38,069 nt of DNA, from positions 1 through 38,069 of IMG/VR virus record IMGVR_UViG_3300044614_000834; one strand, written 5' to 3'. Under the pieces are notes generated by a model. That model was not told the DNA's origin. It made no database searches and saw nothing but the letters and a program-made list of their open reading frames with translations. Positions 3,165-38,069 of the stretch are shown piece by piece. The position numbers and the translations under genes are program-made. Every line of letters begins with the position of its first letter. The stretch's first letter is position 1. The DNA comes from a virus.

Positions 3165-4463
3165 ATGTACCTAACGTCAACCAGCGACAAAATCAGAGTC
3201 ACAACAAGTTCATCGAACAGCGTCCTAGTTCACGCTTCCTATGTGGACCTGTCCGGTAGTACGGTTACACCTGACAGGCTCAACACGAGCATAGCAGCGG
3301 CAACCACAACTGACGTAGTGGGCAGCCCTAGTGGGAGCGATAGCCGAGTCGTAAAGTTTCTATCGGTATGGAACGACCACAATTCAGCGGCTCAGACAAT
3401 TACAGTGCTGCATACGGATGGAACAACGACGGCGGATTTGTGGAGCGGTAGCATTCCTGCCCAGTCAGGATTGATTTTCGACGAAGCAAGCGGGTGGAAG
3501 GTGTCATCTCCGTTCCCTTCGGCGGACATTCAGACTTTTGATGCCCCGGGTGGAACGTGGACCAAGCCGACCGGTCCTCGCACCGGGCTGACCCTTATCC
3601 GGCTGTGGGGCGGTGGAGGCGGCGGCGGAGGCGGCGCGTCTCTGGCAACTGCCGTTGTCGCTAAAGGTGGATCGGGCGGCGGCGGGGGGCTGTGCGCCAG
3701 TCAGATTTTCCCGACCGATTCTCTGCCCGAAAAATTAACTGTCGTGATCGGATTGGGCGGCGGTGGTGGTGGTGGCGGCACGGCTGGCGCAGCGGGCTTG
3801 AATCCGCTTTTTGGATCTCCGTCGTATGTTCGGGCCACGACTTACACGCTACTTTTCGCCTATGGCGGGGCTGCGGGGACTGGCGGTGCGATCAGCGCCG
3901 CGACTTCCAACGGCGGCACCGGGGCGGGCACTCATAGCGCCACCCAGGGAACCATAAGCAGCGCGGGTGCTGCGGGGCAACCAACAAACGGCAGCAATTC
4001 GACTGCGTTTGGTCCCACTTGGGAAGGCGGCGCGGGCGGTGGCGGGTCCAGCAACAGCGCAACCGTGCCCTTGGTGACTGCCGGCGGCACTGCCCGGTGG
4101 GGTGGCGGTGGCGGCGGATCTGGCGGGTGTCACAGCAGCACCCCCGCAACCGTAGACGCATCGGCAGGCGGCGGCACAGGCAACAGCGTTGGCGCTACGG
4201 CGGGCGGGCTGGGTGGCGCAGCGGGCGCAAGCGGCGCATCACCGACCCCAGGCGCGAATGGCGCTGCCACGGACGGCATCGTCGGCGGCACAGGCGGAGG
4301 TGGTGGCGGAACGACTGTCACGGCATCTACTGCGGGCGCAAACGGCGGCAACGGGGGCAAAGGTGGCGGCGGCGGAGGCGGCGGCGGGTGCGGCATGAAC
4401 CCCGGCGTCGGTGGCCGGGGTGGCAACGGAGGCGGCGGCTATGGGATCATAATATCATGGTGA
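3165..4463 (+). CDS. Glycine-rich tail fibre/adhesin-like protein, 432 aa (paralogue 2)
   Basis: This is a full-length paralogue of the preceding gene. The N-terminus again reads LTSTSDKIR and ASYVDLSGSTVTP, followed by WND, HTDGTTTADLW, QSGL and a FDAPGGTWTKP strand, then polyglycine runs and a final YGIIISW. DNA identity is highest over the ASYVDLSGSTVTP segment (near 3237-3275 compared with 1917-1955), while the Gly-rich halves differ in loop content. Such pairs could give alternative receptor specificities or a hetero-oligomeric tip; that is inference. It begins six bases after its twin, and its stop overlaps the next start by seven bases. Confidence 0.75.
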   Translation: MYLTSTSDKIRVTTSSSNSVLVHASYVDLSGSTVTPDRLNTSIAAATTTDVVGSPSGSDSRVVKFLSVWNDHNSAAQTITVLHTDGTTTADLWSGSIPAQSGLIFDEASGWKVSSPFPSADIQTFDAPGGTWTKPTGPRTGLTLIRLWGGGGGGGGGASLATAVVAKGGSGGGGGLCASQIFPTDSLPEKLTVVIGLGGGGGGGGTAGAAGLNPLFGSPSYVRATTYTLLFAYGGAAGTGGAISAATSNGGTGAGTHSATQGTISSAGAAGQPTNGSNSTAFGPTWEGGAGGGGSSNSATVPLVTAGGTARWGGGGGGSGGCHSSTPATVDASAGGGTGNSVGATAGGLGGAAGASGASPTPGANGAATDGIVGGTGGGGGGTTVTASTAGANGGNGGKGGGGGGGGGCGMNPGVGGRGGNGGGGYGIIISW

Positions 4464-9773: not shown

Positions 9774-10022
9774 TTAAAACCTAACTTTGTGTAAAGAATC
9801 CAAATTGACTTCAAGCCGTTTGCCGTCAATCTCTTGACGACCGCGAATACCAGCATCGTTCGAGCAATTGCACCCGGCGATACCGCACAAAGTACGCTTG
9901 GCTTTCTTGATTTGGTTGGCGTTAGGATACGCCACGGCAGTATGGTAGATATGGCTGAGGACTTCGCAGCGTAGGTTTACGCTGGTATTGTGGAAATCGT
10001 TGGTAAGGGTTATCAGTCTCAT
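9774..10022 (-). CDS. Hypothetical protein, 82 aa
   Basis: I use the ATG at 10022, which overlaps the upstream stop by four bases; the longer frame upstream is a shadow of the neighbouring gene. The product, MRLITLTNDFHNTSVNLRCE then a HTAVAYPNANQIKKAKRTLCGIAGCNCSND segment, resembles a small phage protein pattern (vtL.NdFH.t...vr......ls..q...a...LCG...C.Cs), possibly with a metal-binding Cys cluster (CGIAGCNC). No function is assigned. Confidence 0.6.
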   Translation of the reverse strand: MRLITLTNDFHNTSVNLRCEVLSHIYHTAVAYPNANQIKKAKRTLCGIAGCNCSNDAGIRGRQEIDGKRLEVNLDSLHKVRF

Positions 10023-10249
10023 GTTGTGATTGCTTTCATTGTGAGTTTTGGCCAATACTTGGCAGGAAGTACGATGGACTTGAATTGAAACCCGCCGCCA
10101 TAGGCTAGCCGGTATTCGTCCACAAGATAGTTTTTCTCTGTTCTGTCTTTTGCGTAGTCGCAATGATCCCAACTAGCGGCACCATATTGACGGCAAAGGA
10201 TCTGGAACTTGTATCCGCTTTGCGGATCGTAAGCTAGCGGTCGAGTCAT
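10019..10249 (-). CDS. Hypothetical protein, 76 aa
   Basis: The start is placed at ATG 10249 because GGAG lies nine bases upstream; a TTG at 10264 would precede that site. The product is MTRPLAYDPQSGYKFQILCRQYGAASWDHCDYAKDRTEKNYLVDEYRLAYGGGFQFKSI..., a compact alpha/beta sequence whose YLVDEYRLAYGGGF...I.LP segment recalls small phage or plasmid host-takeover proteins. I do not recognise a named family. It overlaps the next gene by four bases. Confidence 0.6.
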   Translation of the reverse strand: MTRPLAYDPQSGYKFQILCRQYGAASWDHCDYAKDRTEKNYLVDEYRLAYGGGFQFKSIVLPAKYWPKLTMKAITT

Positions 10250-10294
10250 TTCAATAATCTCCAAAAGGTGGGTAAGGTAAAACGGTAACCGGGA

Positions 10295-10731: not shown

Positions 10732-10783
10732 GATTCGCAATCCTTTGCGGGTTATCTCGTTAAATCGTCAATTTGGGCCATTA

Positions 10784-10838
10784 GACGCGTTCCGCGTCCA
10801 ACTGGTATGGTTATAGCTATTCGGACGCGGAACGCGTC
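10784..10838. repeat. Pair of inverted short hairpins between minus-strand genes
   Basis: Positions 10784-10798 are GACGCG-TTC-CGCGTC, and 10824-10838 are GACGCG-GAA-CGCGTC. The two are reverse complements of each other, so they could also pair together into a longer hairpin. They directly follow the stop codon of the gene at 10838-11092 and precede the 38-aa gene. They belong to the dispersed 3-nt-loop hairpins seen across the window. Confidence 0.6.
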
Positions 10839-11092
10839 TACGGGGCTGTTTTGGAGGTTTGGAGGGCTTTTAAGTCCCCGCACTCGGCAGCATGGCAGAA
10901 ACAATCGGAAAATTGTCGCATTGCGTCGGCTAGATCGGTAGCCGGTAGCGTTTGTAGGCAGTAGTGAACGGCGTAGCCGTTCCGGGATTTGGTGACATAT
11001 AGCCGGATCTCGTCAACACGAAGTAGGATTGTGCCTACAATCTTGACTTCTTGTTGGATGCCTTGCCAATCGCGGTAGTTGTATCGGTACAT
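10838..11092 (-). CDS. Hypothetical protein, 84 aa
   Basis: The start has an excellent ribosome site (AAGGAGATACC then ATG). The product, MYRYNYRDWQGIQQEVKIVGTILLRVDEIRLYVTKSRNGYAVHYCLQTLPATDLADAMRQFSDCFCHAAECG..., appears alpha/beta, with strand-strand-helix and several Cys/His residues near the end (CFCHAAEC) that could bind metal. No known family is recognised. A 7-bp inverted repeat with a GTA loop (10966-10982) lies inside the gene. Confidence 0.6.
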   Translation of the reverse strand: MYRYNYRDWQGIQQEVKIVGTILLRVDEIRLYVTKSRNGYAVHYCLQTLPATDLADAMRQFSDCFCHAAECGDLKALQTSKTAP

Positions 11093-11129: not shown

Positions 11130-11399
11130 CTACACAATCCAATCGGCATATGCGCCAACGCATCCATCCCGCCAACAATAATCGGAGCCCGCCCAACTAT
11201 CGACGGGCATTCCTTGGATTCCAAGGGCTTTCTTGATTCGTCGGCTTACGGTTTTATCGCTTGCGGTTGTAGGCACTACAACCGTGCGACGGCGCACCCA
11301 ACTACAATTGGCTGACCAGCCACATTCATCCCGCCATAGGTCCATGCATTCGGCACGAATGAAGGCAATCGGGGTACTTTGTTCGCAGATCATTATCAT
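11130..11399 (-). CDS. Hypothetical Trp/Cys-rich protein, 89 aa
   Basis: The product is MIMICEQSTPIAFIRAECMDLWRDECGWSANCSWVRRRTVVVPTTASDKTVSRRIKKALGIQGMPVDSWAGSDYCWRDGCVGAYADWIV, shown here by its leading motifs only in meaning: Cys and Trp in the first and last thirds flank a basic middle (TVSRRIKKALGI). No family is recognised. The GGAG ribosome site lies in the palindrome CTCCAATTGGAG (11408-11419), and a strong minus-strand terminator lies just upstream, so expression may be controlled by read-through or by a promoter I cannot locate. It is the first gene of the block. Confidence 0.55.
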   Translation of the reverse strand: MIMICEQSTPIAFIRAECMDLWRDECGWSANCSWVRRRTVVVPTTASDKTVSRRIKKALGIQGMPVDSWAGSDYCWRDGCVGAYADWIV

Positions 11400-11424
11400 G
11401 TTGATTCTCCAATTGGAGGAAACA

Positions 11425-11450
11425 AAAAAGGGAGCCTACGATAGGCTTCC
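11425..11450 (-). terminator. Intrinsic terminator (minus strand) just upstream of the accessory block
   Basis: Read on the minus strand, a 7-bp stem (GGA-GCCT pairing with AGGC-TCC, with one bulged T) is followed by CTTTTTT. This is a classical Rho-independent terminator. It lies only about 25 bases before the ATG of the first accessory gene (11399) and downstream, on this strand, of a long region with no protein gene. That implies either a non-coding transcript ending here or an attenuator for the block. Confidence 0.7.
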
Positions 11451-12340
11451 TTGAAACCGACAATCTAGCATTGCACTAGAAAGGAGCTATCTAGACTGAA
11501 TCAGGTTAACTATTCCTTATCGTCTAGATTCTCGTATCGGTGGGTTTGTTTGTATTTCGTAGTCTCTATTCCTATCGCCCATTCTGGGTTAGCAAACTGC
11601 TAGCAATTCCTAGTTGCTAGCCATTACTTTGTTTGCCGTCATTTCATTCATTCGATAGTTGGAGTCTTTTTCGCGGACTCCACAATATTTCCCCTATAGC
11701 TCTATTATGGTGACATTGCGATAGATATCGGTAGTTCCCTGAGAAGGGTTTGCGTATCTATCGCCCACAATCGCTAACTAGGTTATCCGTTCCCAAAATA
11801 CGGCAGAACGAACAACCGAGAAACTATTGTTTCGCGACTAACGGCATTGGACTACTTTTCAGGGTAATCCTATCGACCATGCCGATAGATTAGACGGTAT
11901 TGCTATCCGTCATTCCCCAACCAGTATATGGGGATTAGTGGCTATCCAAATTGTCAAAGAACGGACGAAATACCTAAAGCAATCTACCCATGAAGGATAT
12001 CGAACTCGCTGGGGGTGTTTCCCATGCAAGGGGCTATCGGTATTTCAAGGAAGGGGGACTAGCCCTATACGGTGCTACCAGTCGAAAGCGACTCCTATAA
12101 CGAGTATCGGTACTATCGGGATCAGGAAACCGCTTCCCGCATCAGACAGCCTTTAGCCTCTTCGGCGTCTCCGACGCCACCGGTTCCCCCTGCCCTAAGG
12201 CCTGGTTTCCCGTCAGCGATTCCTTTCGCCACTACCATCTTAGTTCGGCAACTAGCCAAGACAAGTCCAACTATCTTCCAAAAAACGCCAAGAATTACCA
12301 AAATAGGGCTCTAGACCAACAAAAACGCGGGGAATAAAAC
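11425..12340 (-). ncRNA. Candidate large structured non-coding RNA (limits and strand uncertain)
   Basis: This stretch of about 0.9 kb has no plausible protein gene but is packed with perfect inverted repeats: 11464-11480 (5 bp), 11489-11496 with 11522-11529 (8 bp), 11599-11621 (8 bp), 11660-11682 (7 bp), 11718-11726 with 11756-11764 (9 bp), 11870-11888 (6 bp), 11914-11934 (6 bp), 12031-12036 with 12060-12065 (6 bp) and 12164-12178 (6 bp). It ends, on the minus strand, in the terminator at 11425-11450. Large phage RNAs such as GOLLD and ROOL have similar size and context, but I cannot match their consensus. The 5' end is a guess and no promoter is clear. Confidence 0.4.
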
Positions 12341-12418
12341 TTCTAAGAAAACCAGAAACCGGAAACCAGCTTTCCCCACTGGACACTTAGTTTTTGCGAA
12401 AGGGCTAAGAGGCCGAAA

Positions 12419-12449
12419 TCGTAAGTCCTTATAGCATAAGGACTTACGA
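12419..12449. other. Perfect 14-bp inverted repeat with 3-nt loop
   Basis: TCGTAAGTCCTTAT and its exact complement flank an AGC loop. There is no T-run on either side (AAAA follows on plus, TTTCGG on minus), so an intrinsic terminator is unlikely. A protein-binding dyad, a cruciform or a replication-related structure fits better. It lies between the hairpin-dense region and the iterons. Confidence 0.7.
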
Positions 12450-12487
12450 AAAACGAGAAATAAAATAACCGGTCAAGGGGTAGCCTA

Positions 12488-12630
12488 GGCCTGCCCAGCA
12501 GGCCATAGGCAGCAAGGGCCTGCCCAGCAGGCCATAGGCAGCAAGGGCCTGCCCAGCAGGCCATAGGCAGCAAGGGCCTGCCCAGCAGGCCTAGGCATAG
12601 AGGGCCTGCATAGCAGGCCTAGGCAGCAAG
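12488..12630. repeat. Five tandem 28-29 bp iterons, each with a 7-bp palindrome
   Basis: Units begin at 12488, 12517, 12546, 12575 and 12603. Each contains GGCCTGC-NNN-GCAGGCC (loop CCA in four units, ATA in the last) followed by a taggcagcaag-like spacer. The first three are identical; the last two are 28 bp and diverge mainly in the spacer. The changed loop in the last unit keeps the stem intact. There are no unique spacers, so this is not CRISPR. Tandem palindromic iterons next to AT-rich DNA suggest an origin or partition/packaging site; that is inference. Confidence 0.75.
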
Positions 12631-12754
12631 GGCAGCCGGTAACCGAACATAACAAACATTATCGGACGAAGCCTAGGGAATAGGCGTTAAGGTGCAAGGG
12701 AGTTAGGCAGATGCTGCATTCGTAGGCAAGGGGGGTCACATTAGCCTTGCTACT

Positions 12755-13189
12755 ATCCGGCTTGCCGGATGGGCGGATGGTTCAGACCCCCTAATATTTT
12801 TATCAAAATATTAGAAATACCGGCTTCCGGGACCGCTTCGCGGTCAATGCACCGGAATACCGGCTTTCTGGGACGGCTCCGCCGTCGAGTATCCGGACAT
12901 TTGCGGACATTATCCGGCCACCGGTAATTCGAAAACCCCTGCATTTATAGCCCTACGCCTGAGTATCCGGACATTACCGGACATACTGCGTGGCTCGTCT
13001 GCCATCCACAAACCTATTACCGACTCGTTTGAAGCCGAATACGAGTCACAAATGTCCAGTTTTAGGCTTTACGGTGTAGAGTTTTCCATTATTTTTTATA
13101 TTTATGAAAAATGAAAAGTGCCGAAATTGCAGGGATTATCACTCCCCGCTCCTATGTCCGGTAGCCTTAAAACGCATTCTGCGTTAAGG
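12755..13189. promoter_or_regulatory. Candidate origin/control region: CCGGACAT octamers and hairpins
   Basis: CCGGACAT occurs at 12893, 12967 and 12977, as GCGGACAT at 12903, and inverted at 13154-13161. Two 24-bp direct repeats beginning GAGTATCCGGACATT (12887-12910 and 12961-12984) differ at two positions. The same stretch has an AT-rich perfect hairpin (12791-12814), GC hairpins with TTC or TCC loops (12831-12845, 12872-12886), a CCTT..AACGCA-TTC-TGCGTT..AAGG hairpin (13165-13189), and an AT-rich tract (13081-13115). The combination suits protein-binding sites at an origin or a switch region. Confidence 0.4.
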
Positions 13190-13215
13190 CGAAAAGTACG
13201 CCGTAATTAGAATAC

Positions 13216-13244
13216 TTGCATCAGTCGCCGGCAGTAGTTATCAT
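13216..13244 (+). promoter_or_regulatory. Candidate promoter for a leaderless methyltransferase mRNA
   Basis: TTGCAT (13216-13221), a 17-bp spacer and TATCAT (13239-13244) place the likely transcription start about seven bases later, on or next to the A of the ATG at 13251. No Shine-Dalgarno precedes this gene, consistent with a leaderless transcript. The -35 match is only partial. Confidence 0.4.
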
Positions 13245-13250
13245 AATGCT

Positions 13251-15787: not shown

Positions 15788-17212
15788 ATGCAAATTGACT
15801 ACTACAAAGAAAAGGCGGACTTATGCCGCCAAAGCTACTTTCACTTTGTGAAAGCATTTTGGCCTTATGTCTCTACCGAGAAGCTACAAGTCAACTGGCA
15901 TATTCCCTACCTTTGCGACGAAATCCAGCGAAATACCGAGCGAATCTTCGAAGGAAAGCCCAAAGAAGCAGATTTAATCTGCAATATCAGCCCAGGAACC
16001 TCAAAATCCTCGATTTTTACGGTCCTCTATGTCCCTTGGGTATGGACCCGGATGCCTGGATTTCGGTACATCGGAACTAGCTTTGCTGAAGATTTAGCCT
16101 TCGAATTGACGGTAAAAAGCCGCCGAATCATCCAATGCCCCCTATATCAGAAGCTATTTCCGGAAATAGTCCTCAGAGAAGACCTAAATAACAAGTCCAT
16201 TTGGTCAAATACCCTCGGCGGCGACAGATACGCCGCCGGTACGGGCGGTAATATCACAGGTCGCCACGCTCACTGTATCGGCATTGACGATCCTATCGAT
16301 CCAAAAGGCGGGTGGTCGAAAGCAAAGCTGCTGGAAGCAGCCAAATACGTCTCAGAAACGCTTCCTAGCCGTAAGGTAGACAAAGCCGTCTCTTGGACGT
16401 ACTTAGTGATGCAGCGAATCTCGATCATGGACCCTACCGAGGTGATGCTAACCAAGTTCCCGAACATCAAGATTATCTGCCTCCCAGGCGAAAAGACCAG
16501 TGCTATCCATCCGCCGGAGCTAGCTGCTTATTATAAGGATGACTTATTTGATCCAGTCAGGTTAAGTAGAAGTGTTCTCAACAGTATCAGGCAGGAATTA
16601 GGGGAATATGGCTACGCCGGTCAGATCTTACAGCAACCGATACCGCCCGGAGGCGGTGCCATCAAGGTAGATAGGATCATCACCGACCATATCGCGGCAC
16701 CGGCAGACCGGGATTTCAAGAAAATCGTCCGAGCATGGGATAGAGCATACCTCACCGAAGGCGGGGATTACACGGTAGGAGTAAAGCTAGGCATCCTAGA
16801 AAACGGCCAAGTATGGATTTTGGATATCAAACGGGGCCAATGGAGCACGGATGAACGAGAAAAGATCATCCTGCTGACGGCACATACGGACGGTAAATCG
16901 TGTCGCATCGGCATGGAGCAAGAGCCCGGCTCCGCCGGGCAAGAAGCCGTAATCCACGCCAGTCGCCGGCTAATGGGCTTCATTGTCAACGTCGAACGGT
17001 CATCCGCTCGCAAGGACATTCGGGCCGATTTATTTGCCACGCAAATAAATCTAGGCAATGTCCACACGGCGATACGCGGGAAAGTGTGGGACGAATACGT
17101 CGAGGAACTAAAGCACTTCCCAGACGGCATCCACGACGACCAAGTCGATGCCAGCTCGCTGGCTTTTCAGATCTTGACCAAGCCTACTGTACGCCTGGGC
17201 GTGCTTAGGTAG
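15788..17212 (+). CDS. terL: Terminase large subunit, 474 aa
   Basis: This is the packaging motor ATPase and headful or cos nuclease. A Walker A-like loop is seen at ISPGTSKSS (residues 67-75) and Walker B at IGIDDPI (164-170), where I expect the catalytic acid. The C-terminal RNase H-like nuclease is marked by AWDRA (316-320), MEQEPGSAGQ (376-385) and HDDQVDA (449-455), supplying the acidic metal-binding residues. Length and motif order match terminases whose C-terminal domain is of the psiM2-ORF9 type. Portal, protease and capsid genes follow. It overlaps a minus-strand gene tail to tail by eight bases. Confidence 0.92.
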   Translation: MQIDYYKEKADLCRQSYFHFVKAFWPYVSTEKLQVNWHIPYLCDEIQRNTERIFEGKPKEADLICNISPGTSKSSIFTVLYVPWVWTRMPGFRYIGTSFAEDLAFELTVKSRRIIQCPLYQKLFPEIVLREDLNNKSIWSNTLGGDRYAAGTGGNITGRHAHCIGIDDPIDPKGGWSKAKLLEAAKYVSETLPSRKVDKAVSWTYLVMQRISIMDPTEVMLTKFPNIKIICLPGEKTSAIHPPELAAYYKDDLFDPVRLSRSVLNSIRQELGEYGYAGQILQQPIPPGGGAIKVDRIITDHIAAPADRDFKKIVRAWDRAYLTEGGDYTVGVKLGILENGQVWILDIKRGQWSTDEREKIILLTAHTDGKSCRIGMEQEPGSAGQEAVIHASRRLMGFIVNVERSSARKDIRADLFATQINLGNVHTAIRGKVWDEYVEELKHFPDGIHDDQVDASSLAFQILTKPTVRLGVLR

Positions 17213-17541: not shown

Positions 17542-19035
17542 ATGACACCGACTTTCCAATTCTTAACGAATCTATACGACCGTGCATTGGCAGGCATTCC
17601 CGTCATGGACGGGATTGACGGCACTCGGGATCTAGATAAAGAGTGTGGCTACCAGAACTTCATCAATGACAACGATTACGTGCGTATGTTTCGGCGAGGC
17701 GATGTCGCCTCCCGTGTCGTAACGCTGGAACCGGATGAATGCTGGCAACAATACCCCAAGATTTACGAGACGGAAGAGGAACGAGATACCGAGTTCGAAA
17801 AGGCGGTAGACCGCCTAGAAGCAAAGACCCGGTTTTTCTCCTATCTTCACCGTTTAGACCGCATTAGCGGCATTCTCCGCTACGGCGTGATGCTCATCGG
17901 CATGGACGATGGAGCATCTCTGGAAATACCGGCACCCGGCTACGACGAGCATAAAATGCTCGACGGTCCTGGCACCGACACAAATATTATCTACTACCGA
18001 GTCTTCACAGAGGCTTCCGTCAGCGTATTGGAGTGGGAGACAGATCCTACCAATCCACGGTTCAATCATCCTCTGTATTACAACCTGAACTTCAACGAAG
18101 TTACCAATTCTAGCAACACGTCGTACACGACGGAGAGAGTCCACTGGTCCCGTATCCTCCATGCCGCAGACAATTTAATTGAGTCTGAAATCCTCGGCCA
18201 GCCGAGAATGGAGAATGTCTGGAACCGGTTGATGGACTTACGCAAAGTCGCCGGAGGTTCCGGCGAGATGTTCTGGAAGGGCGGCTTCCCTGGGCTATCG
18301 TTCGAAGTCGATCCAAAACACGGTGAATTCTCTACCGAAGAGCGGGACGCTCTCCGCGAAGACGTCAAGATGTATGCGGAAGGACTTCAGCGGTACATTA
18401 CTATGGTAGGCGTATCGGTCAAGTCAATTGCTCCGCAGATTGCGGACCCGACAAACCATACCCGGAACCTATTGATGCTGATCGCCATGACGAAGGCGAT
18501 CCCTATGCAGACTTTTATGGGCTCCCAACAAGGGCAGCTAGACAGTCCGCAGGATACGATCACATGGCGTGAGCGCATTATGCTCCGCAAAGAGCGATAC
18601 GTGACCCCGTCGCTGATTCGACCATTCATTGATCGATTGATCCAGATAGGCGCATTGCCTACTCCAGTACCTCAAGAAGATCAACCTTTGCCTTATATGG
18701 TCAAGTGGGAGCCGATGGCTCCTCTTAACATCATGGAACAGGCCAAGGTCGCTAAGGACTTCTCCGAAGCCTTAGCCCGGTATGCTACCGCTGGTGCCGA
18801 AGCCATTATTCCGCGAGCGGAATTCTTAGGCAAGGTAATGGGTTACTCTGGTCAACAGGTACAGGCGATAGAGTCGGCTCCGCCGACTGAGCATTCGTTG
18901 GTATTCAAGCAACTTGAGGGCATGACCGGCTCCGCCGGTGGAAATGCCCCTAGCTCTATACCAAAGGTGCCGAAACCTGGAAATCGCAAAGACCCCGGAA
19001 AAACACCTACCAACACCGTACAGAGGGCAAAATGA
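17542..19035 (+). CDS. Portal protein, DUF1073 family, 497 aa
   Basis: The sequence matches the DUF1073-type phage portal: an N-terminal region with YVRMFRRGDVASRVVTLEPDECWQQYPKI, a FFSYLHRLDRISGILRYGVMLIGMDDG segment, then IIYYRVFTEASVSV, ERVHWSRILHAADNLIESEILGQPRM and a long stem helix (MLRKERYVTPSLIRPFIDRLIQIG), with a proline-rich C-terminus. Portals form the dodecameric ring for DNA entry and terminase docking at the capsid vertex. Length is typical. It lies between terminase and the DUF2213 protein, as in many such phages, and overlaps the next gene by ATGA. Confidence 0.88.
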   Translation: MTPTFQFLTNLYDRALAGIPVMDGIDGTRDLDKECGYQNFINDNDYVRMFRRGDVASRVVTLEPDECWQQYPKIYETEEERDTEFEKAVDRLEAKTRFFSYLHRLDRISGILRYGVMLIGMDDGASLEIPAPGYDEHKMLDGPGTDTNIIYYRVFTEASVSVLEWETDPTNPRFNHPLYYNLNFNEVTNSSNTSYTTERVHWSRILHAADNLIESEILGQPRMENVWNRLMDLRKVAGGSGEMFWKGGFPGLSFEVDPKHGEFSTEERDALREDVKMYAEGLQRYITMVGVSVKSIAPQIADPTNHTRNLLMLIAMTKAIPMQTFMGSQQGQLDSPQDTITWRERIMLRKERYVTPSLIRPFIDRLIQIGALPTPVPQEDQPLPYMVKWEPMAPLNIMEQAKVAKDFSEALARYATAGAEAIIPRAEFLGKVMGYSGQQVQAIESAPPTEHSLVFKQLEGMTGSAGGNAPSSIPKVPKPGNRKDPGKTPTNTVQRAK

Positions 19036-22293: not shown

Positions 22294-24000
22294 ATGGCCG
22301 ATACAATTCGAATCAGACGGGGCACCACAAGTGCCTGGAATGCTGCTAATCCAGTGCTCGCCTTGGGCGAGCAAGGGTATGATACGACGACTAAGCAGTA
22401 TAAAGTCGGGGACGGCACGACGGCTTGGACTTCGTTGGCGTATTCTACGCCTGGGCATATCGCTGCGGGTACGGTGCTGGCGAATCCTAGCGGGGTGCTT
22501 GCAAATCCTGTCGGTGTCGATGCGGCTGGGATGAGGACGTTGCTGGGCATCGAAGACGTAAACATTCGACAAGGTATCACCACGGCTTCAGACGCAAGGG
22601 TGTTGTCCGATTTGGTTATCACAAACGGATCTCCAATTGTAACGTCTGCAACTGCTGGTTTTGCAGCATCCGATGTTGGCAAAACAATTTCAGTCGTGGA
22701 TGGTTTAGGTGCTGGCGTAAAAGCGTTGACGACGATTATATCGCGGCAAAGTGCAACGCAAGTGACACTAGCTACAAACATGCTAGCAAGTGGCACGAAG
22801 GCTTGCACGTATGGCACTGACGATGCGCCTGCGATTCAAGCTGCACTCAACACAATGGCTGTGGCAAATACTGGCGTTCTGTCGCTTGCACTGCAAGGGC
22901 ATGTCTTTATCGCTTCTCCGGTGGTAATGAATTTCACGGACAAGATTAACTCTTTGCGGTTGGACCTCAGCGAAGCCGTCTTGCACGTAAGCGTTCCACT
23001 TAATGCCACAGCGTTTACTTTCTCGGTGTTAGATGTGTTTATTATGGAAGGTGGGTCCGTCATGGGTACACCGATGGAAAGCCGTGATGCGTACTGCGTT
23101 TTCCGACTAAAAGAAATGTTGCTTTGCGTTATTCGTGATGTCCATTTTAACGGGCTTGCTGATCACGCTGCCACAGGCGGTGGGACAGCAGCCGGACCAG
23201 GATGCATTGTTTTCGATAGATGCAAAACCGAGATGTCGAATTGCAAATTTTCAAGCTGCATTTACAACTCATCTAACGACGTTTCCACCGTCCAAGTTAT
23301 CAATTGGTGGGGTTTCCGATGTGTCAATTGTTACTGGATTGACTGGGCTAGGTACAACGATAGTCTAACACTTAGCAAACAGTTTGGGCCTCCAAGCCTT
23401 GCCTGGGTGCACGTAAACTACCATTATACTGAAGGCAATCCTCTTTCGTATTACGAGTATGGAAAAGCAATCTTTGAAGATTGTGTATTCGAGGAAGGTG
23501 CGGTTTATGGTGTTTTGGCACGGCCTTACAGCGGTAAGAAAATCGAAGATGTGATTATCAAAAGGTGCTTATCTGCTACAGCCGACTTGGGTAGCGGTAC
23601 TGGAAAAGCGTTTTACTTTTTCGATGTGAACAATGCTATTTTAGAACACTGTAAAACAGGATGGGCCACGCTTGCTAGTGACGCGGTTGCAGCAACTGCC
23701 GTAACGAATCTACAGATAAGTCATTGCTTATTTCGTGATGAGACAAAGACAATTCGATTATCGTCCGTCGATAACTTTTTAATCGAGAACTCTGTCTTTA
23801 CAACTATTGTAGGAACCGCAACAAATAGCCATATCATCCGCAACGGCAAGGGATCTGCGACGTTTACAAAAGCTGGTGCTGTAAGTGATGCGGATTTCCC
23901 TGTAGCTCCATGCGACGGTACGCTGGCAGTTGACATAACAAATGATCGGCTATATTTCCGATCTGGCGGAACGTGGGAATACATCAATAAGAGTTCGTAA
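22294..24000 (+). CDS. Tail spike with Mtd-like N-terminus and beta-helix, 568 aa
   Basis: Residues 4-50 read IRIRRGTTSAWNAANPVLALGEQGYDTTTKQYKVGDGTTAWTSLAY, the pattern of the N-terminal domain of the major tropism determinant (Mtd_N) that many phage fibres share for attachment. After a linker the body contains repeated short beta-strand turns (CVIRDVHFNGLAD, CIVFDRCKTEMSNCKFSSC, IIKRCLSATADL, ISHCLFRD, FLIENSVF) typical of a right-handed beta-helix spike that binds or cuts surface polysaccharide. The C-terminus (GTLAVDITNDRLYFRSGGTWEYI) is a small cap motif. It lies after the head operon terminator, away from the main fibre cluster. Confidence 0.82.
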   Translation: MADTIRIRRGTTSAWNAANPVLALGEQGYDTTTKQYKVGDGTTAWTSLAYSTPGHIAAGTVLANPSGVLANPVGVDAAGMRTLLGIEDVNIRQGITTASDARVLSDLVITNGSPIVTSATAGFAASDVGKTISVVDGLGAGVKALTTIISRQSATQVTLATNMLASGTKACTYGTDDAPAIQAALNTMAVANTGVLSLALQGHVFIASPVVMNFTDKINSLRLDLSEAVLHVSVPLNATAFTFSVLDVFIMEGGSVMGTPMESRDAYCVFRLKEMLLCVIRDVHFNGLADHAATGGGTAAGPGCIVFDRCKTEMSNCKFSSCIYNSSNDVSTVQVINWWGFRCVNCYWIDWARYNDSLTLSKQFGPPSLAWVHVNYHYTEGNPLSYYEYGKAIFEDCVFEEGAVYGVLARPYSGKKIEDVIIKRCLSATADLGSGTGKAFYFFDVNNAILEHCKTGWATLASDAVAATAVTNLQISHCLFRDETKTIRLSSVDNFLIENSVFTTIVGTATNSHIIRNGKGSATFTKAGAVSDADFPVAPCDGTLAVDITNDRLYFRSGGTWEYINKSS

Positions 24001-29820: not shown

Positions 29821-30128
29821 GTGACTCAGAGTACCTTTGGTACTACGTGGCACACGAAACAGGCTGTCCAAGTGTCCAAATCCTCAAAGAGTATCTTACT
29901 TATGAGGATCTGGAAAAATGGATGGCCTATTTTTATAGACGGAAGCAGGAGCGCGAAAAGCAGGACTGGTACTTGGCGTCTATTGCTCACATAGTGGCAT
30001 GTACGATGGGTCAGAGTAAAACGAAGATCGAAGACCACTTACTGAAATTCAGCAATGAAACTCCAGCCCCTAACCCTGACGCCTCTAAGGCGATGTGGTT
30101 GAAGGCTCTAGGGATTAAAGAAATATGA
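29814..30128 (+). CDS. Tail assembly chaperone extension, gpT-like (made by -1 frameshift)
   Basis: This reading frame has no convincing start of its own (a GTG at 29847 lacks a ribosome site). Entered by the -1 shift, it adds 104 residues (VLSDSEYLWYYVAHETGCPSVQ..., LTYEDLEKWMAYFYRRKQEREKQDWYLASIAHIVACTMG) to the gpG-like protein, giving a fusion of 221 residues. The eylw.f......e.g....e......s.se...w.ay...... pattern is typical of gpT-type C-termini. It overlaps the tape measure start by four bases. Confidence 0.8.
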   Translation, partial: VLSDSEYLWYYVAHETGCPSVQILKEYLTYEDLEKWMAYFYRRKQEREKQDWYLASIAHIVACTMGQSKTKIEDHLLKFSNETPAPNPDASKAMWLKALGIKEI

Positions 30129-32866
30129 GCGGCCCATCTCGCGAACTACCTCCATTAGTCGTAAAGATTACTGCGGACTCGTCTAAGCTGAAAAAAGGTT
30201 TAGAGGACGCGGTTAAGGCTGCCAAAGAAGCTGCGGATTCGATCACTAAGAATTTCGGCAAAGCTAATCTCGATCAAATCAAACAGCGTCGAGAGACGCT
30301 TCGGCGTCTAGGTTCTATTGATAAAGCATACGCTAAACAGAGAATAGCCGAGGACAAAGAATCGGCTTCTAAGAAGAAAGAGATCCATAAGGATACTCTA
30401 GACTGGATGCGCAAGGCCAATAAGAAATACGCCGATCAGACGCGTTCCGATGCCGTTAAGAATTTTGGTAGATTGACTTCTACGTTCAAAGGCTTGAAAA
30501 GCAGCAAGGCCGCCAAAGACGGCATGGATCTAAACGGACTTGTAGCCAGCGGAGAGAAAGAACTTGCCGCCGCTAAGACTAGAGCCAAGAAAGCCGCGAA
30601 TACTATTCGAGGTATTTGGGAAGATCGCCGCAACGAGACAAACCGACGAAACAAGCAAGTAGATAAAGCCTACAAAAACCAACGCATCGCCGAGGATAAA
30701 CGGGCCGCCGAAGACACAGCGAGAGCGAAGCGGGCAGCCGCTTCTATCCGCCGATACCGAGCGCAGCGAGAAGAGGCCCAGGCCGCTGACGAACAAAGAG
30801 TTCTTCGCCGCTCCCGTCTCAGGCAAGTAAGGACGGGCCGAGCCCGTCAGGAAGCATGGCAAACCTCTTGGCGTAACCCCACTACGTGGGGTGGACGCAT
30901 GAGTAGAGGGTTAGAAGCTGGCGGCGGCAACATGATGGGCGCTCGCGCTGATATGTACATGCACCGACAATCCCTGATGAGCATGGTCGGGAGTGCCGCT
31001 AGTTTCGTTAAGCCATTGGCGGAGTTCCAGAACTACGCAGTCGGCATTAGGCAGTTCACAGGTTCCGCCGAAGAAGCGAAACAAGTCTTGAATGACTTAC
31101 AAGACTTCGCTTTGCTGTCGCCGTACACCATGTCTTCCGTGATGGAGGGCACGACGCTTATGATGCGGTACGGCATGGAGGCTGAAGATGCTGTAGACAC
31201 TACTAGGATGCTAGGCGACGTAGCTGGCGGTAATGCGGAAAAGCTGCGACTATTAGCATTAGCGGTAGGTCAGACTACTTCTATAGGCAGACTTCAAGGC
31301 CAAGAACTCCGTCAAATGACGGAGCACGGCTTTAATCCGCTGCAAATCGCTGCTGAGCACATGCTCGGCCCCAATGCCTCTAAGCAGGACATCAAAGCCA
31401 AAGTCTACGAATTTTCTAAAGCAATGCGAGCAGGTCGCATAGACGCAGAATTCGTTGTCAAGGCATTGGAAGTAGGAACCGCCGAAGGCGGCAAGTACGC
31501 CGGGCAGATGGCGGCCTACAACAAGACCATCGACGGTATGACCAACCAGATTTTAGAAACCATGACTCTGGTTAAGAAAGAGATTGCCGCTATTTTCGAG
31601 AAAGATATCGAGAAGTTACTTGCTCAAGTATTACGGTATACCAATGCCTTGGTTTTATATCTCAAAGATGCTAAGAATGCAGATACTATTAAATCTTACG
31701 CTTTGCTGGCAGCTAAGGTTTTCGGTGCTGTAGCGGCGTTTCACGCCTTTGGTATGGCGGTAGCTTACTCTAAGTGGATGCTAGGTTCGTTAGCTATAGT
31801 GCTAGGCACTATCTGGAAGCTGTTGCTGCCGTTTCGGTGGCTGCTGGGGCAACTAGCATGGTTGTTCGTTCGGTTGGGTATTAGCGCAGTGACAGCATTG
31901 GCTCCCGTCATTGGATCTATAACAATGATGCAACTGGGATTCGCCGCTGCTGCTTTAGGCATAGTCGCTTTCGGCGTAGTGTTAGCCACGACTATGTATA
32001 ATGCTAACAAAGACGTCATTAAATACAACGAAGAGCTGAAAAAGGCTAACGAACTACAAGACGAACTAAATGGGATCAACAATCGACGACATCGAGAAGA
32101 GATGGATAAGATTATGGCCGAGCAAGACCCCGCCAAACGCAAGCAAATGGCAACTGACTTAATGGCTCGGTATGAAACGGAACTACAGGGCAAGAATACT
32201 AATATCGAGACACAGAAGGCTTTGATTGCTGCTTATGAACCACAAGCCAACCGAGCTTTTCAGAGTGCCCAGCTACCTCTAACCAAACAGGACTACGAAC
32301 AGGGAATGCGAGTGGGTCGCGTAGTCGGCAGGGCGGAGTGGGTAAATGAAAGTGAGAATTTGAAGATACTAGAAAACGACAGACGGACGCTGAAAAGTAA
32401 TATAGAAGCGCTGAAGGACCAAACTGGTGTCATAGGTAAAGATACCGGAGCCGGAGGTCTATTTGATCCGAAGTCTTGGCTAAAGGGACTAGAGCCGTAT
32501 CTGAAGGATCTAAAGGAAATAGAGACTAAGAAACTCGACGGCCCTGTGAATTTCGACACAATGGTCCGGCCTGAAGACCCTGAAGAAGTCAAAGCCGCGA
32601 AGCGGCGAGCTAAAGGAATCTCTAATGCCCCTGCCGATCTACCGATGCCGACGCTCGCGGGCACGTCAACTCACGCCGAACGCTTGTATCGATACGACCA
32701 GATGATGAAAGGCGATAAAGTAGGAACTCCAGCAGAACAAAAGCAAATTACTTTACTGGAGCGTATCGCAAAGAATACCCAATTTATGAATACAGCAGGC
32801 GGAGTCCCTAATATGAAACAACCTACGCCGCAAATGGCTTCCTTCGTATCAGGACCGACTAACTAA
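30125..32866 (+). CDS. Tail tape measure protein, 913 aa
   Basis: The longest tail gene downstream of the chaperones is the tape measure, setting tail length. The N-terminal 250 residues are helical and Lys/Arg/Ala-rich coiled coil. Residues about 270-470 form a tape-measure N-terminal type domain (RQFTGSAEEAKQVLNDLQDFALLSPYTMSSVMEGTTLMMRYGMEAEDAVDTTRMLGDVAGGNAEKLRLLALAVGQ, with QGQELRQMTEHGFNPL). Residues about 522-628 contain several membrane helices (LAIVLGTIWKLLLPF, ALGIVAFGVVLATTM), consistent with insertion into the host membrane at DNA ejection. The rest is helical. ATGA overlap with the chaperone gene. Confidence 0.88.
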   Translation: MSGPSRELPPLVVKITADSSKLKKGLEDAVKAAKEAADSITKNFGKANLDQIKQRRETLRRLGSIDKAYAKQRIAEDKESASKKKEIHKDTLDWMRKANKKYADQTRSDAVKNFGRLTSTFKGLKSSKAAKDGMDLNGLVASGEKELAAAKTRAKKAANTIRGIWEDRRNETNRRNKQVDKAYKNQRIAEDKRAAEDTARAKRAAASIRRYRAQREEAQAADEQRVLRRSRLRQVRTGRARQEAWQTSWRNPTTWGGRMSRGLEAGGGNMMGARADMYMHRQSLMSMVGSAASFVKPLAEFQNYAVGIRQFTGSAEEAKQVLNDLQDFALLSPYTMSSVMEGTTLMMRYGMEAEDAVDTTRMLGDVAGGNAEKLRLLALAVGQTTSIGRLQGQELRQMTEHGFNPLQIAAEHMLGPNASKQDIKAKVYEFSKAMRAGRIDAEFVVKALEVGTAEGGKYAGQMAAYNKTIDGMTNQILETMTLVKKEIAAIFEKDIEKLLAQVLRYTNALVLYLKDAKNADTIKSYALLAAKVFGAVAAFHAFGMAVAYSKWMLGSLAIVLGTIWKLLLPFRWLLGQLAWLFVRLGISAVTALAPVIGSITMMQLGFAAAALGIVAFGVVLATTMYNANKDVIKYNEELKKANELQDELNGINNRRHREEMDKIMAEQDPAKRKQMATDLMARYETELQGKNTNIETQKALIAAYEPQANRAFQSAQLPLTKQDYEQGMRVGRVVGRAEWVNESENLKILENDRRTLKSNIEALKDQTGVIGKDTGAGGLFDPKSWLKGLEPYLKDLKEIETKKLDGPVNFDTMVRPEDPEEVKAAKRRAKGISNAPADLPMPTLAGTSTHAERLYRYDQMMKGDKVGTPAEQKQITLLERIAKNTQFMNTAGGVPNMKQPTPQMASFVSGPTN

Positions 32867-37708: not shown

Positions 37709-38069
37709 ATGAGCTGTAGTGGTAATTGCCTTGCATATTGGGACGGTGTCGGGTGGTCGATAGAGCTAGGCACTGAATGCGATAGTCTCTGCCAGTGTTT
37801 TCCCTCCGGCACGCCGGAGATCGGCACCTATAGTTTTCCTTGTCTGAGCACAGAGACGACTACACCGGCTCCTACGACGACGCCGGAGGCGACGACTACA
37901 CCGGCTCCTACTACGACGCCGGAGGCGACGACTACACCGGCTCCCACTACGACGCCGGAGGCGACGACTACTGAGACTCCCACTACGACGCCGGAGGCGA
38001 CGACTACTGAGACACCCACGACGACGCCGGAGGCGACGACTACTGAGACTCCCACTACGACGCCGGAGG
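37709..38069 (+). CDS. Cys-module protein with TTTPAP repeats (3' partial)
   Basis: The gene starts at ATG 37709 and runs off the window. Residues 3-31 (MSCSGNCLAYWDGVGWSIELGTECDSLCQC, key residues C3, C7, W16, C24, C28, C30) repeat the Cys module of the large distal tail protein. The rest is a Thr-Pro-Glu stalk of 12-residue units (ATTTPAPTTTPE, later ATTTETPTTTPE). This mucin-like stalk would be extended. It is probably another tail-tip component; its C-terminal domain is outside the window. The ribosome site is weak. Confidence 0.65.
   Translation, partial: MSCSGNCLAYWDGVGWSIELGTECDSLCQCFPSGTPEIGTYSFPCLSTETTTPAPTTTPEATTTPAPTTTPEATTTPAPTTTPEATTTETPTTTPEATTTETPTTTPEATTTETPTTTPE
37856..38069 (+). 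repeat. In-frame 36-bp repeats encoding TTTPAP/TTTPET stalk
   Basis: One partial 33-bp unit (37856-37888) is followed by five 36-bp units starting at 37889, 37925, 37961, 37997 and 38033 that encode ATTTPAPTTTPE or ATTTETPTTTPE. The array continues beyond the window. Repeat number could vary by recombination. Confidence 0.9.

Follow-up and report, generated by a model that had tools for sequence, protein, structure and literature searches.

GOLLD and ROOL are phage RNAs that form cages made of RNA, a homo-14-mer in GOLLD and a homo-octamer in ROOL, and a neighbourhood of tRNAs is frequent for GOLLD, not obligatory. GOLLD is longer than 800 nt and combines a conserved 3' region with a less conserved 5' region (PMC12286853). 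The lytic phage ICP1, which is devoid of tRNAs, has an ORF-less gap of ~1 kb, and a noncoding RNA of ~800 nt is its most abundant phage transcript (PMC7567579). In mycobacteriophages L5 and D29, the right-end RNA is a very abundant noncoding RNA of ~500 nt belonging to the early region (PMC5712189).

Large phage RNAs that are rare and not represented in Rfam can escape notice. The DNA analyzed here (the window) is the IMG/VR virus record IMGVR_UViG_3300044614_000834, with a length of 38,069 bases. Comparison with its relatives indicates that positions 11425-12470 of the minus strand very probably encode a structured noncoding RNA with an intrinsic terminator at its 3' end, and that this RNA appears to represent a new class of stand-alone large 'ornate' phage RNA.

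Genomic Setting

The source virus is a tailed phage of ~70 kb, recorded from environmental DNA alone. The window encodes a terminase (15788-17212), a portal (17542-19035), an Mtd_N-domain tail protein (22294-24000), a tape measure (30125-32866) and tail-fibre proteins, and the 64- and 69-kb relatives add a family A DNA polymerase, a clamp, a clamp loader, a 5'-3' exonuclease and a RecA-like protein. Isolated phages are distant, the best terminase match having 36.5% identity and the portal ~34%, and neither isolated phages nor plasmids gave a match at the nucleotide level. With ARAGORN, tRNA genes were found neither in the window nor in the relatives of 64 and 69 kb. The region 11400-13250 sits between leftward small ORFs and rightward late genes.

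Several other elements were recorded in the window. An 81-aa protein at 10019-10264 (-) has its sole isolated-phage relatives in Bacillus and Brevibacillus phages (~51-57% identity). An 18-bp perfect inverted repeat, TAGACGCGTTCCGCGTCC, is located at 10782-10840, with 23 nt between its arms, where the ORF 10838-11092 ends, and small GC-rich hairpins resembling it are scattered through the phage. In each relative, the last 215 bases of the window (37855-38069) align at several positions offset from one another, which marks them as a short region of tandem repeats within an ORF.

Homologues and Coding Potential

Relatives were gathered by terminase and neighbour-gene searches, and pattern scans contributed one more contig. 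The core region is held by four contigs (3300042880_000321, 3300044613_001789, 3300034106_002949 and 3300044644_000902) with a DNA identity of 80-84%, against 95-98% in the rightward flank. As the leftward genes have also diverged (82-96%), part of this contrast may come from mosaic exchange and not from a higher rate of change in the RNA. Three contigs, referred to as the L013 type, differ by at most one base over the core, and consequently the comparison set consists of three distinct near-full-length haplotypes and one partial homologue, most helices resting on few events.

The partial homologue (L052; 3300020195_001194) was obtained by a terminase-alignment scan and its terminase is 70% identical. 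At the end of this contig lies the 5' half of the RNA, without the 3' domain, including a 40-nt stretch with 92.5% identity to the RNA. L052 is matched colinearly by nhmmer (E = 1.8e-8 with L014 and 1.7e-6 with L012), and was aligned by local and nhmmer alignments, because global MAFFT misaligned a contig without the 3' domain. This homology may be taken as a sign of the antiquity of the RNA. The L052 portion folds at z = -14.3, partly owing to a tandem array. Concerning further homologues, two scans for patterns of invariant 18-nt stretches returned just the same four contigs and a chance match in a coding gene (L020), and two additional pattern scans returned the same four contigs and one unrelated contig. 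A loop-centred pattern led to 14 extra contigs, which were rejected as nhmmer found no homology, while a terminase-based scan of bacterial genomes gave one weak match and no RNA.

The absence of a plausible protein gene, on which the original prediction relied, was borne out. Three ORFs lie inside the core (11938-12156 +, 12072-12314 + and 12122-12301 -), and each is broken in every relative by 1-5 internal stops, often with frameshifts as well. A reading frame conserved across relatives, named by that prediction as contrary evidence, was looked for and is absent. Core indels between relatives are mostly not multiples of three.

Consensus Fold and Strand

Covariation across the collected homologous regions, one of the checks that had been proposed, is strong on the minus strand. 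The consensus fold (alignment A3) comprises 45 helices and 317 pairs, with 95.8% of the cells paired. Derived from the same alignment on which the pairs were counted, it has 29 pairs changed on both sides vs 15.1 ± 2.6 in shuffles, and none of 500 shuffles reaches either its paired-cell share or its doubly changed pair count. Sliding the partners by 1-3 columns leaves just 2-5 doubly changed pairs. RNAalifold on the minus strand also gave a dense fold, with 33 such pairs. Windowed alignments compared with column-shuffled ones presented fold z-scores down to -8.8 on the minus and -6.1 on the plus strand, and single-sequence folding gave -4.5 and -3.5, respectively; a significant signal on the plus strand is expected of any hairpin-rich sequence.

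Independently of the consensus, each haplotype was folded alone and the differences of the other haplotypes were scored at its Watson-Crick pairs. These counts represent non-independent events: 71 single changes formed G-U and 34 formed A-C, while 76 double changes restored a Watson-Crick pair and 25 did not. Restricted to consensus pairs, the ratios become 33:7 and 66:4. Some of the G-U/A-C asymmetry is background, since unpaired columns have 27 C/T vs 18 G/A differences. The G-U excess together with the terminator favours the minus strand, so the strand, which had been left uncertain, now appears largely settled, whereas the 5' end, uncertain as well, is only bracketed between 12470 and ~13090. 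The fold of the 5' domain is uncertain, several of its helices being 75-90% paired. No pseudoknot between conserved unpaired segments was found under the criteria used and no covarying self-complementary loop was seen; two invariant self-complementary loop sequences, CGCG and CTAG, are present in the loops at 11667-11675 and 11607-11613.

The stems that had first drawn attention to the region are among the consensus helices. Those of 8 bp at 11489-11529 and 11599-11621 are present as described, and the one at 11718-11764 exists with 10 bp instead of the claimed 9 bp; the three stems and the terminator correspond to helices 33, 41, 38 and 44 of the consensus fold. The expectation of fewer than one such stem by chance was also correct, as the 916-nt region contains three vs 0.34 ± 0.54 in dinucleotide shuffles (maximum 3 in 200). 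The whole hairpin-rich stretch at 8.7-13.3 kb and a few other bins likewise reach three, and because this neighbouring stretch scores equally, the stem excess is weak on its own; with the single-strand fold z-score alone it would not establish an RNA.

Domains and Extent of the RNA

The structured core is read from 12470 down to the terminator (11428-12470, minus strand, as are the core elements below). The terminator stem is formed by 11452-11442 and 11438-11428 and is followed by a T run. This element (11425-11452), the putative 3' end of the RNA, had been placed at 11425-11450 and is real, and in relatives the stem is kept by a compensatory change from CCTATCGTAGG to CCAATTGTTGG. The 3' domain (11428-12046) is conserved, mostly with 85-100% identity between haplotypes and with nearly all helices 95-100% paired. 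Within it, a closed subdomain of 149 nt (11682-11830) has 54 pairs with 99.4% of the cells paired and was used as covariance model R1. It harbors a 12-bp helix (11718-11764, listed as helix 5) which includes the 9-bp stem of the original prediction and has five compensatory pair changes, GATAGATA/TATCTATC being replaced by GATATCGTA/TTACGATATG in the L013 type.

The 5' domain (12047-12470) is variable, with 55-94% identity and the conserved islands AAGTGTCCA and TTATAGGAGTCGCTTTCGA. Specifically, the hairpin at 12163-12182 differs in sequence in each haplotype of the alignment and keeps its pairing in all (GGCGTC-GGA-GACGCC, GGCGC-TGGAA-GCGCC and GTCGCC-TTTA-GGCGAC). In L052 the stem of the 14-bp hairpin at 12419-12449 is different, and six pairs of this hairpin are changed on both sides once L052 is included. 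Beyond the core, a tandem hairpin array at 12479-12640 has a period of 28-29 nt, the unit GGCCTGCNNNGCAGGCC and a variable copy number. At the equivalent position, ~570-720, L052 carries an array of an unrelated palindrome, also of variable copy number, and the two arrays may represent an architecture kept without sequence. Further upstream on the minus strand, a 31-nt element, CGTCCGATAATGTTTGTTATGTTCGGTTACC (12638-12668), has one substitution in L052 and is absent from L013, a near-invariant block closed by GGGGGTC...GACCCCCC (12728-12791) may be part of the transcript, and two small hairpins, GACCGC-GAA-GCGGTC and GACGGC-GGA-GCCGTC (12831-12886), have C/G pairs swapped in L013.

The upstream limit first given for the region, 12340, was too short, as homology continues to ~12886 and conserved noncoding sequence to 13250. 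With L052, the conserved unit reaches upstream as far as 12668 or beyond. Synteny in the relatives breaks just beyond the terminator and near 12886-12994, and these breaks at both sides would support a self-contained unit. The locus probably reaches further upstream than the core, to 12,650-13,090. A weak promoter-like candidate, TTTTCA-18-AATAAT, is located at 13088-13117 (-) at the same place in three haplotypes and is a possible start, the number of promoter-like matches in the region being at chance level. With a 5' end between 12470 and ~13090, the RNA would be about 1.05-1.65 kb long.

The Wider Phage Group

Distant phages with terminases 39-48% identical often have a noncoding gap of 0.6-1.5 kb between the leftward genes and the rightward late operon. 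Such a gap lies upstream of the terminase in L056, L061, L064, L069, L081, L084, L089, L097, L106, L113, L118 and L123. Some gaps fold better than shuffles and others do not; those of L061, L081, L084, L097 and L113 have, on one strand or both, z-scores of -4 to -10 and are candidates for further RNAs. None of the distant gaps matches the window RNA, and a search of 38 phage records from the wider group with model R1 returned nothing. The 1.5-kb noncoding gap of L009 was ruled out as a homologue by nhmmer and by its fold z-score.

Small ribozyme-like elements were also recorded in this group. At 3391-3463 (-) of L009, whose terminase is 38% identical, a type-P3 twister ribozyme scores above the Rfam threshold. 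Hammerhead type II-like elements are located on the minus strand of L064 (8547-8603 and 8294-8353) and L069 (7933-7988, 8404-8459 and 6979-7035). Their core CUGAUGA/GAAAC is intact and all score 4-8 bits below the Rfam gathering score; the stem I sequences differ between copies and the pairing is kept.

Possible Function and Alternative Explanations

We propose that the RNA gene is transcribed leftward during infection from the intergenic region where the leftward small genes and the rightward late operon diverge, with a transcript that would end at the intrinsic terminator at 11425. The RNA would consist of the conserved multi-helix 3' domain of ~620 nt and the faster-changing 5' domain of ~420 nt, and the 5' array of tandem hairpins is probably part of it. 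We consider it likely that such an RNA acts in trans, as an RNA-only assembly or an RNP scaffold of the kind suspected for GOLLD and ROOL, and not as the leader of the next gene. Self-assembly into a multimer would be a considerably more doubtful step.

It is improbable that the region is a very long 5' leader for control of the leftward early genes, its terminator serving as an attenuator or antitermination target. The ORF 11130-11399 (-) does start just 26 nt beyond the terminator, and 11 nt at 12043-12053 are perfectly complementary to the 5' arm of the terminator (11446-11456), forming a possible antiterminator. However, this complementarity is missing in both other haplotypes, and with the candidate pairing not conserved the attenuator hypothesis was rejected. 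The relatives also have ~250-390 nt of other sequence between the terminator and the next shared ORF, which argues against a fixed link between the RNA and one downstream gene. To our knowledge, more than 1 kb with 45 helices far exceeds known leaders. Even less probable is a palindrome-rich element acting as DNA, such as a replication origin, a packaging or a recombination site. The location in a divergent intergenic region, the tandem hairpin array and other palindromes, and the large noncoding gap that other phages of the group keep in the same place would suit such an element, but the long-range helices, the compensated terminator and the excess of G-U over A-C fit an RNA of one strand, and the paired segments are mostly multi-helix domains, not palindromes.

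It is similarly hard to believe that the locus is a GOLLD or ROOL member diverged past recognition by the Rfam models. The length, the phage setting and the conserved 3' and variable 5' parts, the latter described for GOLLD (PMC12286853), are similar, yet three haplotypes gave no match to either family at E up to 10, and tRNAs are absent nearby and throughout the two longest relatives. Least credible of all is an origin from a retroelement, an intron or a diversity-generating system, as its remnant or template RNA. The Mtd_N-domain tail protein is a point in its favour, but no reverse transcriptase was detected in the window or in the two long relatives, in searches whose controls worked, Rfam gave no group I or II intron match, and no inside ORF is conserved. 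A structured RNA, likely acting in trans, is our preferred reading.

Comparison With Known RNAs

As had also been proposed, all 4227 families of Rfam 15 were compared by cmscan with the window and two further sequences (L017 and L016), covering three haplotypes, and nothing credible was found. No family, GOLLD and ROOL included, matched at the gathering threshold, and at E ≤ 10 there were just chance matches to unrelated families, far below thresholds. In the absence of a credible match on any haplotype, the RNA is not a recognisable GOLLD, ROOL or OLE RNA. Along with the covarying fold and the missing reading frame, this supports the suggestion of the original prediction that the region could hold a new class. 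No description of this RNA was found in the literature searched, which is not proof of absence. Of the features of large structured phage noncoding RNAs in general, a length above 500 nt with covariation-supported helices and the lack of a conserved reading frame are both present here.

Concerning the individual systems, the ICP1 noncoding transcript is alike in the size of its ORF-less gap and in belonging to a phage without tRNAs. It was rejected as a homologue, since nhmmer found no similarity and its match to model R1 was not beyond chance. The L5/D29 right-end RNA, compared by literature alone, is likewise noncoding and phage-borne and is shorter (~500 nt). Like ROOL, the window RNA is large, ornate and phage-borne and lacks a gene for a protein partner (PMC12286853), but it is longer, has no model match, is not near tRNAs, and its 5' and 3' domains diverge separately.

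A new, unrelated RNA class would offer an independent case in which the fold can be tested, the 3' end is defined and four divergent haplotypes are available. It is tempting, if rather speculative, to imagine a third, unrelated phage RNA that self-assembles into a symmetric multimer, either a cage or a ring, in which the conserved 3' domain would form the shell and the 5' domain with its array a replaceable cap or cargo handle. Unlike GOLLD, the window RNA lacks a covariance-model match and nearby tRNAs, and it is known here from its sequence alone. The description of GOLLD is nevertheless the closest resemblance: both are phage-encoded RNAs of at least 0.8 kb with an elaborate multi-helix fold that code for no protein (PMC12286853), and the conserved 3' (mostly 85-100% identity) and divergent 5' (55-94%) parts of the window RNA repeat a feature described for GOLLD.
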